From an uncultured Spartobacteria bacterium (GTDB taxonomy: Bacteria; Verrucomicrobiota; Verrucomicrobiia; Chthoniobacterales; Chthoniobacteraceae), in the NCBI GenBank assembly GCA_903929475.1, contig CAIYUV010000203.1, forward strand, positions 1-45,976: DNA of 45,976 nucleotides, in the 5' to 3' direction. A program made the translations under genes and the position numbers. This document shows, piece by piece, positions 23,785 to 28,858 of the stretch; within the stretch, counting starts at the first letter, position 1; every line of letters starts with the position of its first letter. Under the pieces are notes generated by a model, which was given only the letters and a program-made list of their open reading frames with translations, did no database searches and was not told the origin of the DNA.

Positions 23785-24756
23785 ATGACGCTCCACGAGC
23801 TGCAAACCATCTACTCCACACCGTTCTTCGACCTCCTCTCGCGCGCACGCGCCGCCTACTTGGCGCATTGGAAAGAGAACGAAGTCCAGCTTTGCACCCT
23901 CCTCTCCATCAAAACCGGCGGCTGCTCCGAAGACTGCGGCTACTGCGCGCAATCGGCCCGCTACAACACCGGCGTCCAGCGCGAAACGCTCATGACACCC
24001 GACGCCGTGGAAGAAGTCGCCATTCGTGCGAAAGAAAATGGCTCCACCCGGTTCTGCATGGGCGCTGCGTGGAAAGGCGTGCGCGAAGGCGATCCCCGTT
24101 TTGAAAGCGTGCTCGAAAGCATCCGCCGCGTCTCCAAACTCGGCATGGAAGTCTGCGTCACCCTCGGCCAGCTCGGCGCAGGCGAGGCGCGCCAGCTCAA
24201 AGCCGCAGGCGTCACCGCCTACAACCACAACATTGATACCTCCCCCGAACACTACCCCAACATCGTCACCACCCACACCTTTCAAGATCGGCTCGACACC
24301 ATCGGCCACGTGCAAGACGCCGGCATGAGCGTCTGCTGCGGCGGCATCATCGGCCTCGGCGAAACCGAAGACGACCGCCTCAAAATGCTCGAAGTCCTCA
24401 CCAACTTCAGCCCCGCGCCCGAGAGCGTCCCCATCAACTGCCTCATGCCCATGCCCGGCACGCCCCTCGAGGAACAAGCGCCCGTGGACATCTTCCAGCT
24501 TGTCCGCCTCATCGCCACCACACGCATCGCGCTGCCGCGCGCAAAAGTCCGCCTCAGCGCCGGGCGCACCCGCCTCACCCGCGAAGCCCAGGCCCTCTGC
24601 TTCTTCGCCGGCGCCAACAGCATCTTCTACGGCGACAAACTCCTCACCGCCGCCAACCCCGAAAAAGACAGCGACCTCGCATTACTCGAAGAACTGGACC
24701 TCAAACCCCAGCGCCCCTTCGCCGAAAACTGCGACCGCATGGCGTGTCTCACGTAG
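23785..24756 (+). CDS. bioB: Biotin synthase
   Basis: A 323-aa radical-SAM enzyme that inserts sulfur into dethiobiotin. The SAM cluster ligands are C47, C51 and C54 in GGCSEDCGYC, and YNHNIDTS (near residue 150) and LSAGR near residue 250 are BioB hallmarks. The auxiliary 2Fe-2S ligands would be C91 (TRFCMGAAW), C122 and C182. Length matches the family. No other biotin genes are nearby, so it stands alone. Downstream is a repeat island with no further + strand gene for 1.4 kb. Confidence 0.95.
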   Translation: MTLHELQTIYSTPFFDLLSRARAAYLAHWKENEVQLCTLLSIKTGGCSEDCGYCAQSARYNTGVQRETLMTPDAVEEVAIRAKENGSTRFCMGAAWKGVREGDPRFESVLESIRRVSKLGMEVCVTLGQLGAGEARQLKAAGVTAYNHNIDTSPEHYPNIVTTHTFQDRLDTIGHVQDAGMSVCCGGIIGLGETEDDRLKMLEVLTNFSPAPESVPINCLMPMPGTPLEEQAPVDIFQLVRLIATTRIALPRAKVRLSAGRTRLTREAQALCFFAGANSIFYGDKLLTAANPEKDSDLALLEELDLKPQRPFAENCDRMACLT

Positions 24757-24804: not shown

Positions 24805-24817
24805 ACGGGGAGCATTT

Positions 24818-24845
24818 GGTGACTGGTGAATGGTGACTGGTGAAT
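24818..24845 (+). repeat. Heptamer array, (GGTGACT GGTGAAT) x2
   Basis: Four perfect heptamers alternating GGTGACT and GGTGAAT. The same two words occur inverted at 26139-26194 and in this orientation at 27000-27027. The stretch 24846-24970 after it shows no gene, only a segment (about 24920-24955) whose complement reads MTTVKDMKRMK, which I take to be another dispersed repeat. Confidence 0.85.
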
Positions 24846-24970: not shown

Positions 24971-25220
24971 TAAAGGGAGCCGCGAATGAGTCCCGGAGAG
25001 AGTGCCCGAGATAAAAAGGAGCCGCGAATGAGTCCCGGAGGGACTGCCTGACATAAAAGGGAGCCGCGAATGAGTCCCGGAGAGATTGCCCGATATAAAA
25101 AGGGAGCCGCGAATGAGTCCCGGAGGGACTGCCTGACATAAAAGGGAGCCGCGAATGAGTCTCGGAGAGATTGCCCGATATAAAAAGGAACCGCGAATGA
25201 GTCCCGGAGGGACTGCCAGC
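24971..25220 (+). repeat. Six-unit 42/43-bp tandem repeat with alternating unit types
   Basis: GCCGCGAATGAG (or ACCGCGAATGAG) recurs at 24979, 25021, 25063, 25106, 25148 and 25190. Units alternate between GGAGAGA(T)TGCCCGATA and GGAGGGACTGCCTGACA endings, giving a higher-order period of 84-85 bp. There are no variable spacers, so this is not a CRISPR array. Confidence 0.9.
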
Positions 25221-25280: not shown

Positions 25281-25306
25281 GGCAGCAGAGTGGGGGAGCG
25301 ACCTTC

Positions 25307-25690
25307 AAAATGGGAAATACTTGTCTCAAAATGGGAGATTATTGCTTCAAAATGGGAAATGCTTGTCTCAAAATGGGAGATTCTTGCTTCAAAAAAGGAG
25401 GCGCTTGCCTTAATAGGGGAGATGCTTACATGGAAATGGGAGACGATTGTTGGTTAAAGTGAGAGGTTTGTGGCTGGTTGAACGTTTCTTGTGTGTAATG
25501 TAGAGTTTCTTGTGCGAAATGCAGTGTGTATTGAACAAAATGCAAAATAACTTAAACAAAATGCAGTGCGTATTGAACAAAATGCAGAGTAGCTTTTGAG
25601 AAATGCAATAGTTTTTTTTGTGAAATGCAGATGTTCTTGTGCGTGATGCAACATGCATTAAATAAAAGCAAGAATGCATTTTGATATAGA
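25307..25690 (+). repeat. 21-bp-period array, left arm (core word AAAATG)
   Basis: About 18 units of 21 bp. The first seven (25307-25453) start AAAATGGGA and alternate in a 42-bp dimer; after about 25516 the core becomes AAATGCA. On the + strand they read as heptads: FKMGNTC LKMGDYC in the first part, LNKMQNN LNKMQCV LNKMQSS later. Stops and a one-base slip break the frame, so no full-length protein is coded now. No other gene is seen here. Confidence 0.8.
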
Positions 25691-25695
25691 GACTC

Positions 25696-26094
25696 TGCAT
25701 TTTAAACAATACATTCTGCATTTAATCATAGAAAGATTACATTTTGTGCAATACAGTTTGCATTTCGCGTAAGATAGTTTGCATTTTGTTCAAGACAGTT
25801 TGCATTTTGTGCAAGATAGTTTGCATTTCGCGCTAGATTGTCTGCATTTTGTGCTGGACTTTCTGCATTTGGCATTGGTATTTCAGTTTTAGCTTTATGA
25901 TTCTTACTTTCTGCCTTAGTGGTTTTCCATTTGGCTGCAAAGTTTTGCCTTTTCGCGTTTCGCCTCTCAAACTTCGGCTCTCAGATTTTCTTTTTCGGCT
26001 CTCGCATCTTCCGCTTTGGCGTAGTGATGCTCCGAGCGGCCATAAAATCTCCCGCTTTTTTCGCAAGGGTTTCACTTTCTCTGGCGGGGCCTTT
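25696..26094 (-). repeat. 21-bp-period array, right arm, inverted (core word TGCATTTT)
   Basis: About 19 units of 21 bp, starting TGCATTTT at 25696, 25780, 25801 and so on, fading into TTTGGC/TTCGG words by 26090. It is the reverse complement in kind of the left arm. On the - strand the clear units read LHKMQTV LNKMQTI LREMQTV, a textbook coiled-coil heptad with Leu and Met at a and d. Stops interrupt it. Part of an ORF over 25849-26232 is only a by-product of this periodicity. Confidence 0.75.
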
Positions 26095-26138
26095 ATGGAC
26101 GGGCATGGACGAGGATGGACTTGGGCTTCGCGGAGGAC

Positions 26139-26208
26139 ATTCACCAGTCACCATTCACCAGTCACCATTCACCATTCACTATTCACCAGTTACCAACCAC
26201 CCTTCACC
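26139..26208 (-). repeat. Heptamer array, inverted copy, ending at a start codon
   Basis: Ten 7-bp steps: ATTCACC and AGTCACC alternate, then AACCACC, CTTCACC. It is the complement of GGTGAAT/GGTGACT at 24818 and 27000. It ends 8 bp before ATG 26217 and so fills the place of a ribosome-binding site. Confidence 0.9.
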
Positions 26209-26216
26209 CACACACC

Positions 26217-26948
26217 ATGTCCACTTCGCTAAGATCCTTTGCCAATCGCCTCCAAAAGGGGCGTGTTTTGTTCATTGCGGTTTCCGGTTTTTCGCCGGGG
26301 TTTGCTCCGGCGGATGGGAGTCTGGCACCGGGGCCGTTCGGGGCGTCGCTGGATGCGATGTCGTCTTTGCTGGATGAGATTGGGTCGCTGGAGACGGAGA
26401 TTTCGTCGTCCCGGACGGAGCGGTCGGCGATGGCGAAGGCGGTGCGCAGTTTGACGACGCGGGTGTTGGGTTACGTGAAGGCGAACGCGGCGTGGAAGCT
26501 GGAGTTTCCGAGGATGAAGGAGCTGGGCGACCGGGTGCGCAATGTGCGCGCGTCGTCCCGGCGGGCGAAGATGGCGGCGGCGGCGGGGGGCGCGTCGCCG
26601 GTGCGGGAGCGGGCGGGGCGCGGTGCGGGGAATGGGAGTTTTGCGGAGATGGCGTCGAGTTTCAAATCGCTGGTGGCGCTGGTGAATGGGCTGGCGGGTT
26701 TTTCACCGCCGGATGTGGCGATCTCGGCGGCGTCGCTCACGGCGCTCGCGGGGCAGTTTGATGCGCTGAATGGGCAGGTGGGCACGGCGGAGTCGGCGCT
26801 GGATGCGGCGAAGCAGGCGCGCAAGGCGGCGTTTTACGAGGAGGGGACGGGTCTTGCGGCGAAGTTTGCGGCGATTAAGCAATCGGTGAAGGGCCAGTAT
26901 GGGCAAAATTCGACGGAGTATGCGCAGGTGTCGGGGATGCGGTGGTAG
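26217..26948 (+). CDS. Small helical protein in a heptamer-bracketed cassette
   Basis: A 243-aa protein of no family I can name. Residues 13-31 are weakly hydrophobic (LQKGRVLFIAVSGFSPGFAPA) and could be a signal. The rest is helix-rich with heptad-like stretches (45-75, 165-215) and an Ala/Gly/Arg linker (112-135). The C-terminus, VKGQYGQNSTEYAQVSGMRW, looks like a conserved end motif. Third positions are very GC-rich with GGG and GCG runs, unlike the neighbours. It lies between opposed heptamer arrays (26139-26208 and 27000-27027), which suggests movement as a unit. The upstream frame stays open into the array, so the start is a choice. Confidence 0.6.
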   Translation: MSTSLRSFANRLQKGRVLFIAVSGFSPGFAPADGSLAPGPFGASLDAMSSLLDEIGSLETEISSSRTERSAMAKAVRSLTTRVLGYVKANAAWKLEFPRMKELGDRVRNVRASSRRAKMAAAAGGASPVRERAGRGAGNGSFAEMASSFKSLVALVNGLAGFSPPDVAISAASLTALAGQFDALNGQVGTAESALDAAKQARKAAFYEEGTGLAAKFAAIKQSVKGQYGQNSTEYAQVSGMRW

Positions 26949-26999
26949 TGGGGGCGCAAGCGGCGGGGCGATTTTGTGAAGTTGCAGTGTTTGCGGGGC

Positions 27000-27027
27000 G
27001 GTGACTGGCGACTGGTGATTGGTGACT
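27000..27027 (+). repeat. Heptamer array downstream of the helical protein gene
   Basis: GGTGACT GGCGACT GGTGATT GGTGACT. It is inverted relative to 26139-26208, so the gene between has heptamer terminal inverted repeats of a kind. Confidence 0.85.
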
Positions 27028-27064
27028 GGTTTTCGCCGGGCACGTCGCTGCACGTGCGGGGCTT

Positions 27065-28858
27065 TTAGCGGGGGGTGACGGGCTGGATTTCGTAACGCGC
27101 GGCAAAGGGGTAGCCGAGGGGTTTGCCTTCGGCGTCAAAGAGTCGCGCTTTGAAGTTTGTGGTGCTGGCGATGCGGATGGGGGCGTCGCACGCGGCGGAT
27201 GCGGGCGTGGGGTCTTTGCCGTCGAGTGTGTAGCGGGCGGTTCCTTTTGCGCCGGGCGCGAGGGCGACGGTCAGGGTGACTTCGCTGCTGAATTTTTGCT
27301 CGCCGGCGATGCGCGTGCCTTCGCTGTGGACGGTGATTTGATGGACGAGTGCGTCCAACACGCGGTCGGTGGATTCCATGCTGCGTGAAAATTCTTCGTA
27401 GCTGCGGGTCGCGTTTTGATTCCAGACGCGCTCGCTCATCGTTGCGAGGCGGTGGCGCAAATTTGGAAGCTCGACGTTTTCTTTTTGCTCCCACGCGCAC
27501 ATCTGCGCGCCGAAAAGCGGTGCCTCGGGAGGGAGGATGACGCCTTTGTCCTCGGCTTTTGCGCCGAAGGGTTTGAACTGCCGCGACTGCCACGCGAAAA
27601 TTTCCTCCGTGGAGCGTCCGCCGTTGACCACATACATCGGCGTCCATGATGCGTTGATGACTTTGTAGCCGTCCTTCACCAATTTGTCCGGTTGGTAGAA
27701 GCGAATTTCGTAGGCCATGACGATTACGTCCTTCGGGATTTGGATCGGCGAGCCCGCCTCGCGACCGAAGCCTTCCCAGACGAGCATCTGCTTGCCGTTT
27801 TTCTTCACGATCTCGTCCATGTCGGCGACAAACTTTCTGTAGAGCTGGTGCTGGTTGGGCAGGTTGTATTTTGCGAACGACGCTTTGAAGTCCTCGTTTT
27901 GATTGGCGAAGGCGAGATCCGCCTCGTCGCCGCCGATGTGGAAATACGGGCTGCTTTTAAACACCTCGCACATTTCCGCGACGATGGTTTCCAGCGCCTG
28001 CATGACCTCGGCCTTTGCAAAGTTGATCGAGGCGTGGTGCTCGTAGGGCTTTGTGCCTTTGATCATAAACAAGTCGCGCATCGCGCGGTTCATCGCGGCG
28101 GAGTGGCCGGGCACGTCCAGCTCGGGGATGATGGTCACGCCGCGCGCATCGGCGAATGCGACGAGGTCCTTGAGTTCCTCGATGGTGTAGGTTTTCCCGC
28201 CGTGCTGATTTTGTGTCGCGAGCTTCGGATACACCTTCGATGGGAACATGATGGACTGATCGTCGGTGAGATGCAGATGCAGGTAGCGGATTTTGTAGAG
28301 CCGGCAGAGCTGCACCATTTGCCGGAGGTTCGAGAGCGAGTGATACTGGCGCGCCACGTCCACAAACAGCCCGCGATATTCCGTCTGCGGCGCGTCCTCG
28401 ACGGACATCACCGGTAAAAAAACTTTGCCGCTGCGGATTTGAAGTGACTGGAGCAGTGTCGTCGTGCCGAGTGCGACGGCAGCGTAGTTGCCGCCCTCGA
28501 TTTTCGCGCGATCGGACACGATGAAGTTGTGCGCTTCGCCTTTCAACGAAGGCTCGAGCGAAAGAAAGATGTCGCCCGCGCCAGGAGTGCCGACTTTCAC
28601 CGCGAGTTGCAGCCCCGAGACGAGTGAAATTTCCCCCGCGAGCACGTCGGCGAGTGGACGCAGCTCCTCAGTGCGCGCCACGATTTTACTTTGCGCTCCA
28701 ATTCCAATGCTCGCTGCGCCGACTTGGATTTTCTGCGGCCACGGAACGAGCGACGGGGCCACATTTCCCGGCTGCGTCGCTGTCGCGATGAGCGGAATGC
28801 CCGCAAAGAGAACAGCGAGGACTCGCGAGATGAGCGAAGTGTTTTGGGATACGTTCAT
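27065..28858 (-). CDS. Beta-N-acetylhexosaminidase, GH20
   Basis: A 597-aa secreted glycosidase that removes terminal N-acetylglucosamine or N-acetylgalactosamine. A signal peptide ends near TATATQPG (residue 28). Residues 30-145 are the GH20b accessory domain; the barrel follows, with FHIGGDEAD (near 306-314) giving the Asp-Glu pair of substrate-assisted catalysis, and RGLFVDVARQYHS near 163. The last 80 residues resemble the chitobiase C-terminal fold (ARYTLDGKDPTP). It is the last gene of the - strand glycan cluster, 9 bp after the second fucosidase gene. Confidence 0.92.
   Translation of the reverse strand: MNVSQNTSLISRVLAVLFAGIPLIATATQPGNVAPSLVPWPQKIQVGAASIGIGAQSKIVARTEELRPLADVLAGEISLVSGLQLAVKVGTPGAGDIFLSLEPSLKGEAHNFIVSDRAKIEGGNYAAVALGTTTLLQSLQIRSGKVFLPVMSVEDAPQTEYRGLFVDVARQYHSLSNLRQMVQLCRLYKIRYLHLHLTDDQSIMFPSKVYPKLATQNQHGGKTYTIEELKDLVAFADARGVTIIPELDVPGHSAAMNRAMRDLFMIKGTKPYEHHASINFAKAEVMQALETIVAEMCEVFKSSPYFHIGGDEADLAFANQNEDFKASFAKYNLPNQHQLYRKFVADMDEIVKKNGKQMLVWEGFGREAGSPIQIPKDVIVMAYEIRFYQPDKLVKDGYKVINASWTPMYVVNGGRSTEEIFAWQSRQFKPFGAKAEDKGVILPPEAPLFGAQMCAWEQKENVELPNLRHRLATMSERVWNQNATRSYEEFSRSMESTDRVLDALVHQITVHSEGTRIAGEQKFSSEVTLTVALAPGAKGTARYTLDGKDPTPASAACDAPIRIASTTNFKARLFDAEGKPLGYPFAARYEIQPVTPR

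Follow-up and report, generated by a model that had tools for sequence, protein, structure and literature searches.

A 21-bp-period intergenic array is inherited together with the adjoining gene for a basic protein in Bacteroidota and a Verrucomicrobiota-like genus

Gene and array are inherited together, and the array period is fixed at 21 bp, in a protein family with a member on the 45,976-nucleotide stretch of DNA from an uncultured Spartobacteria bacterium analysed here (GenBank assembly GCA_903929475.1, contig CAIYUV010000203.1, positions 1-45,976; hereafter the window). In the window the array lies at 25302 to approximately 26080, with no strand assigned, and the gene follows on the forward strand at 26217-26948. 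From sequence comparison we favour, with modest confidence, a reading in which array and protein form a two-part module, the array being its DNA component and the encoded protein, a putative DNA-binding coat, the other component. We further consider it probable that such pairs form a new class of two-part chromosomal system, consisting of a protein and a helically phased tandem array, which would exist in at least two versions (one with 21-bp units, the other with DUF6261 and palindromic 40-42-bp units) across Bacteroidota and one genus that gene content alone places near Verrucomicrobiota, each protein copy being matched to its own fast-changing array.

The window array occupies the intergenic interval between bioB (forward strand, ending at 24756) and the gene at 26217, and comprises approximately 37 units at 21-bp steps, as counted in an earlier note on this DNA, with one 1-bp slip near 25617. 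Autocorrelation over 25300-26060 peaked at lags of 21 (0.584), 42 (0.566), 63 (0.503) and 84 (0.453); the mean for lags of 1-90 was 0.285, which the lag-21 value exceeded by approximately 18 binomial standard deviations; the peak was present in every sub-block (25300-25460, 25460-25690, 25690-25880 and, more weakly, 25880-26110) and so persists past the first 150 bp. The two opposed arms described previously carry the core AAAATG(GG/CA) on the left and TGCATTTT on the right, and their inversion, which had been placed near 25690, is real: the strand switches near 25660-25700, and aligning the array with its reverse complement gives 67% identity over 331 bp (E = 7e-18). The 42-bp dimer pattern reported for the first units was also confirmed. 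Inner units follow the consensus TTGnACnAAATGCAGAnTnTC (left arm on the forward strand, right arm on the reverse), outer units are more diverged, for example GCTTCAAAATGGGAGATGCTT on the left, the variable stretches within units are approximately 5 nt long, and only a faint 7-bp signal was seen inside the unit. Searches gave no Rfam match and no tRNA, and a phage DNA similarity search returned a single weak match.

The array is non-coding. The earlier note had proposed that its units encode coiled-coil heptads, either in a decayed, self-inverted gene or in a minisatellite whose period happens to generate coiled coils, and had itself remarked on the stops that break the frames; each of the six frames does contain 6-12 stops over 25302-26100. 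Third codon positions were the most conserved, both in the window array (10.1 vs 7.6 and 8.7) and in a second array of the same genome (8.9 vs 6.7 and 6.7), whereas a selected KMQ frame would vary most at exactly these positions. The main component of conservation along the unit had a period of 10.5 bp in both arrays, where components of 3 or 7 bp were nearly absent, and accounted for approximately 38-47% of the variance (a reading of normalised power, in which a single harmonic can reach 0.5 at most), suggesting that the period of 21 reflects two helical turns rather than a run of seven codons. The heptad reading is thus coincidental; of the minisatellite proposal, the minisatellite-like array stands and the coding of coiled coils does not.

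The gene downstream encodes a protein of 243 amino acids when its start is set at the conserved MPxS/MSTS start of the family. The protein has a pI of 10.2, is all-helical by prediction and consists of two homologous halves (hhalign 98.4%, E = 6e-15); family members are approximately 240 amino acids long, mostly with a pI of 9-10. Searches with the family gave no match over the cut-off in Pfam or NCBIfam and nothing above noise in PHROGs or PADLOC, and no recognised DNA-binding domain was seen in the window protein. A sequence search of the PDB returned coiled-coil and designed-bundle matches only, and no relatives of A1 or L219 were found in viral contigs. Folding of the single sequence gave a pLDDT of 55, while a two-row fold of a homologue from the contig L115 (pLDDT 77) comprised two sets of helices and a low-confidence linker; Foldseek found no match under E 0.1 for the protein model, and the similarity to the four-helix proteins bAvd / 23S-IVS (2rld, Z 10.3 over 103 residues; 8ub8_C, Z 9.3 over 112 residues) is at the level of helical-bundle background. 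Of ten genus genomes searched, six have homologues, the window's own among them, and homologues also occur in Bacteroidota; a draw of 388 genomes from the phylum of the window yielded a match in the window's own genome only. Candidate homologues on contig C140 were discarded, as they look like translated heptamer repeats rather than genes.

Within the genus, each of the four homologues for which sufficient sequence precedes the gene (the window, L208, L209 and L211) has an array approximately 115-225 bp upstream; the 21-bp arrays of L208, L209 and L211, at 170-225 bp, are each of their own, different sequence. Only 2.4% of the ORFs in the window's own genome have an array within 300 bp, and the association in the genus had a P of 3e-7. 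The remaining four genus homologues are all close to a contig end (0-317 bp away) on the array side, as expected if an array had broken the assembly there. The pairing could also be reached from the array: an independent search for AAATGCA cores, three in a row and spaced by 21 bp, led to L115, a contig of Dysgonamonadaceae, on which the array adjoins a homologue that was found afterwards with a profile built from the genus proteins (E = 5.5e-27). The protein family occurs in 10 of 35 genomes picked by their arrays, one of which has 12 copies, although the contrast with 1 of 388 spans different phyla and is suggestive only. Of the 32 homologues in the array-picked Bacteroidota genomes, 26 lie no more than 300 bp from an array. 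The background, taken from a random sample of ORFs in seven of these genomes, was 34 of 288 (11.8%), which gives P = 3e-19; the highest background of any single genome (28.6%) gives 1e-9.

In the cleanest of the tests, the association also appeared in genomes drawn irrespective of arrays, namely 197 genomes of one family, 16 of which have the gene (the array-picked centre genome, G533, was left out of the new loci). Here 19 of 24 full-length genes have an array within 400 bp, with a period of 21 or 42 in all cases; the corresponding P values, 5e-14 at the 11.8% background (within 300 bp) and 4e-7 at 28.6%, use backgrounds borrowed from other Bacteroidota genomes. Approximately one fifth of the family's genes lack an array within 400 bp, as judged by fixed detection thresholds; the arrays of L223, L244 and L378 are farther off, and beside L234, L239, L380, L402, L411, L412, L414 and L419 none was detected at all.

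The period itself is strict. When periods of 36-46 were compared, the best was 42 in each of 41 family arrays and 41 or 43 in none, and mean identity was 0.76 at an offset of 21, as opposed to 0.27 at 20 and 22. Similarity between arrays rises with protein identity (Mantel test, 0/2000), and the side of the gene on which the array lies tracks the protein tree, with 15 changes vs 22.9 after shuffling (0/200). In that tree the window genus joins a Bacteroidota group with upstream arrays, from the family of G533 (99/93). Near-copies favour clustering in both the Mantel and the array-side tests, so these tests support joint inheritance and not necessarily co-evolution.

A second protein-array pair was found through one member of the array-paired family that weakly resembles DUF6261 (PF19775; 16.5 bits, below the Pfam cut-off of 27). 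Bacteroidota DUF6261 genes (L248-L276) adjoin arrays with a period of 40-42 bp at 18 of 29 loci (at least 0.58 identity over 189 bp); ten of these arrays have a period of 41 bp, five of 42 and three of 40. As in the window, a protein gene stands by an intergenic array whose period is specific to the family; unlike those of the window pair, the DUF6261 arrays have no 21-bp signal, and their units are palindromic (mean stem 5.9 vs 3.9 in shuffles). A period of 41 bp cannot be held by a reading frame, which favours a nucleic-acid cause. Homology between the two protein families was not detected (hhalign 5.5%), nor was DUF6261 found in the window's own genome (G000) or in the genomes G001 and G007.

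Arrays also occur away from the gene, and the earlier note's expectation of similar arrays elsewhere was correct. The second array of the window's own genome (G000:C122:39780-40660), which that note had missed, is inverted with the same layout and has TTGnACnAAATGCAGAnTnTC as its inner consensus; the window and C122 array consensuses agree at 15-16 of 21 positions. The pattern AATGCAN15AATGCA, at zero mismatches, occurs 22 times in the genome, 21 of them inside these two arrays. No family gene was found within the approximately 20 kb searched on each side of the C122 array. This array is adjoined by another, 42-bp array (GCGTTCCCACACAGGCCAG...; L014:4929-5078). Among 44 tandem arrays in 0.9 Mb from eight genomes, 36 have a period of 20-22 or 40-43. 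In array-rich genomes most arrays of 21/42 bp lack an adjoining family gene (approximately 20 arrays vs two genes), and in a sample of genome G524 most arrays lie beside neither gene family. G524 also has 21-bp arrays away from the gene that share one consensus (GCAAAATAACATCG...), scattered at L287:16378-16697, L290:12226-12691 and L292:13112-13473, which differ from its gene-adjacent arrays. Strong arrays are few in those genomes of the genus that gave no homologue: 102 kb of G003 contained one and 120 kb of G008 contained none. Gene-free arrays may be sites used in trans, partners of protein families yet to be recognised, or remnants.

We propose that the basic, two-lobed helical protein binds double-stranded array DNA on one face, with one lobe per 10.5-bp turn and hence one molecule per 21 bp; given two lobes, two turns and a 21-bp unit, one molecule per unit is the simplest model. 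Neighbouring molecules would touch, producing a nucleoprotein filament or cluster as long as the array, and such contacts could account for the frequent 42-bp dimer pattern. Each array would drift and be re-homogenised by tandem duplication, and its protein would follow. A coat on double-stranded DNA needs no single direction of transcription and would tolerate the strand switch, and the gene-free C122 array, of like consensus, could serve as a second site in trans. Candidate roles for the coat include chromosome organisation, local silencing or self-regulation, and the upkeep of a selfish element; our preferred guess is a structural or silencing site of the chromosome. By analogy, the window pair may work in the manner of plasmid iteron and centromere arrays such as ParR-parC, in which helically phased direct repeats lie by the gene for their binding protein; unlike in those systems, no ParR, Rep or ParM-like partner was seen, and the arrays are chromosomal, multi-copy and in part gene-free. 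Against the coat model, the protein lacks a recognised DNA-binding domain, approximately one fifth of the genes have no array close by, arrays can exist without a neighbouring family gene, and 21 is also 3 x 7, heptamer repeats being common in the genus. The heptamer STRR repeats of cyanobacteria have a period that is a multiple of 7, as does the window array, which is also flanked by heptamers; it differs from them in its 21-bp unit, with little internal 7-bp signal, and in having a protein partner.

No description of such a protein-array pair was found in open papers on 21-bp or intergenic tandem repeats of these phyla, in keeping with the earlier note, which knew of no such family; the nearest described systems are TIGR-Tas and the BrickBuilt minisatellites. 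TIGR arrays consist of 8-12-nt repeats alternating with 9-nt spacers, contain box C/D motifs and are accompanied by Tas proteins with a Nop domain (PMC12045711). As in our family, a protein gene there has a tandem array upstream or downstream, with repeats that vary between loci (PMC12045711). It is this layout of one gene and an adjacent, locus-specific array, along with the basic protein and the array lying directly downstream of the gene in many Bacteroidota loci, that recommends an RNA module, in which transcription of the array yields 21-nt repeat RNA for the protein to bind, whether as a scaffold, as a decoy or as the precursor of guides, much as with TIGR or CRISPR arrays. We consider this unlikely, because both arrays of the window's genome switch strand, terminator-like hairpins were seen by eye between gene and array at three Bacteroidota loci (L224, L226 and L236), and the 21-bp units contain no palindromes beyond chance, consensus stems being no longer than in shuffles. 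Moreover, many of the arrays have near-identical units, which leaves no guiding spacers; compared with the 9-nt (up to 12-nt) TIGR spacers, the variable stretches in the window are short. Pfam scans of eight family members revealed no Nop domain. The units also abut without the spacers of a CRISPR array, and no cas genes were recognised on reading the ORF translations.

The surroundings of the window pair bear on whether gene and array move together as a mobile or selfish element, the array being the cis site for its spread or retention. The 21-bp array is adjoined by an array of 42/43-bp period (24972-25217, 5.8 copies, AAAAGGAGCCGCGAATGAGTCCCGGAGAGACTGCCCGACATA; AAAAGGAGCCGCGAATGAGTCCCGGAG...), and a heptamer/14-mer repeat, CATTCACCAGTCAC, lies between it and the gene (26138-26208; neither is assigned a strand). 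TGGTGAn repeats complementary to the latter, at 24817-24845 and approximately 26995-27030, stand in opposite orientations around array and gene. These flanking repeats had gone unnoticed previously, as had the gene start, approximately 115 bp downstream of the array. The segment 24979-27074 (no strand assigned), by comparison of shared flanks, has no counterpart in the close relative G005, and the distribution is patchy (one of 388 genomes of the phylum) yet includes relatives in another phylum, with up to 12 copies per genome and paralogues at different places. Nevertheless we regard mobility as an improbable account of the pair, since no transposase, recombinase or clean target-site duplication was seen and the G005 site is not cleanly empty: in place of the segment it has approximately 700 bp of a differing GH20 C-terminus. 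The heptamers at the segment's ends also occur at other intergenic places of the genus, which makes a function for them doubtful. The GH20 hexosaminidase gene of the window (27065-28858) ends approximately 700 bp earlier than that of G005, the array-gene segment occupying the place of its C-terminus. In G007, a near-identical relative, the sequence at the corresponding place downstream of bioB (L196:1-247) contains the transposon-end-like GGGTCAGGACATGGGTAACACC and then reaches the contig end.

We think it quite improbable that these are ordinary minisatellites, produced by genome-wide slippage, beside a gene that merely sits in array-prone intergenic regions. The frequency of the 21/42-bp period away from the gene, described above, fits that account. 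Opposed to it are an association far stronger than the background, whether this is taken from the same genomes or from related ones, and the tracking of the protein tree by array side and sequence; in addition, DUF6261 arrays in genomes of like kind lack the 21-bp signal, indicating that the period follows the protein family, a link that slippage leaves unexplained. The BrickBuilt minisatellites of Porphyromonas gingivalis have a 23-nt unit and one sequence family per species and lie inside a MITE with inverted ends, and no partner protein family is reported in the text consulted (PMC4596501). They resemble our family's arrays in being intergenic, spacer-less tandem arrays of approximately two helical turns per unit, with many dispersed copies in Bacteroidota, and differ in that the family arrays are exactly 21 bp (42 being 2 x 21), locus-specific in sequence and adjoined by a dedicated protein gene (PMC4596501). 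BrickBuilt has a leader and a tail with terminal inverted repeats; the complementary heptamers that flank the window segment are of a kind common in the genus. Lastly, the earlier coding proposals, a decayed gene for a coiled coil or a source of new coiled-coil proteins, are scarcely credible and largely refuted as the cause of the period, for although one frame of the units reads L-x-K-M-Q-x-x, the codon and stop evidence above speaks against them, the arrays by homologous genes have unrelated sequences with no conserved KMQ heptad, and a decayed self-inverted gene would leave the second, gene-free inverted array of shared consensus unexplained.

Bacterial intergenic minisatellites are usually ascribed to slippage, and the pairing described here makes part of them a testable protein-DNA system. 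It also gives two unnamed protein families, the partners of the 21-bp and of the 40-42-bp arrays, functions to be sought. If protein and array truly co-evolve, the family would also serve as a natural experiment on the way such a protein keeps pace with a DNA site that changes rapidly.
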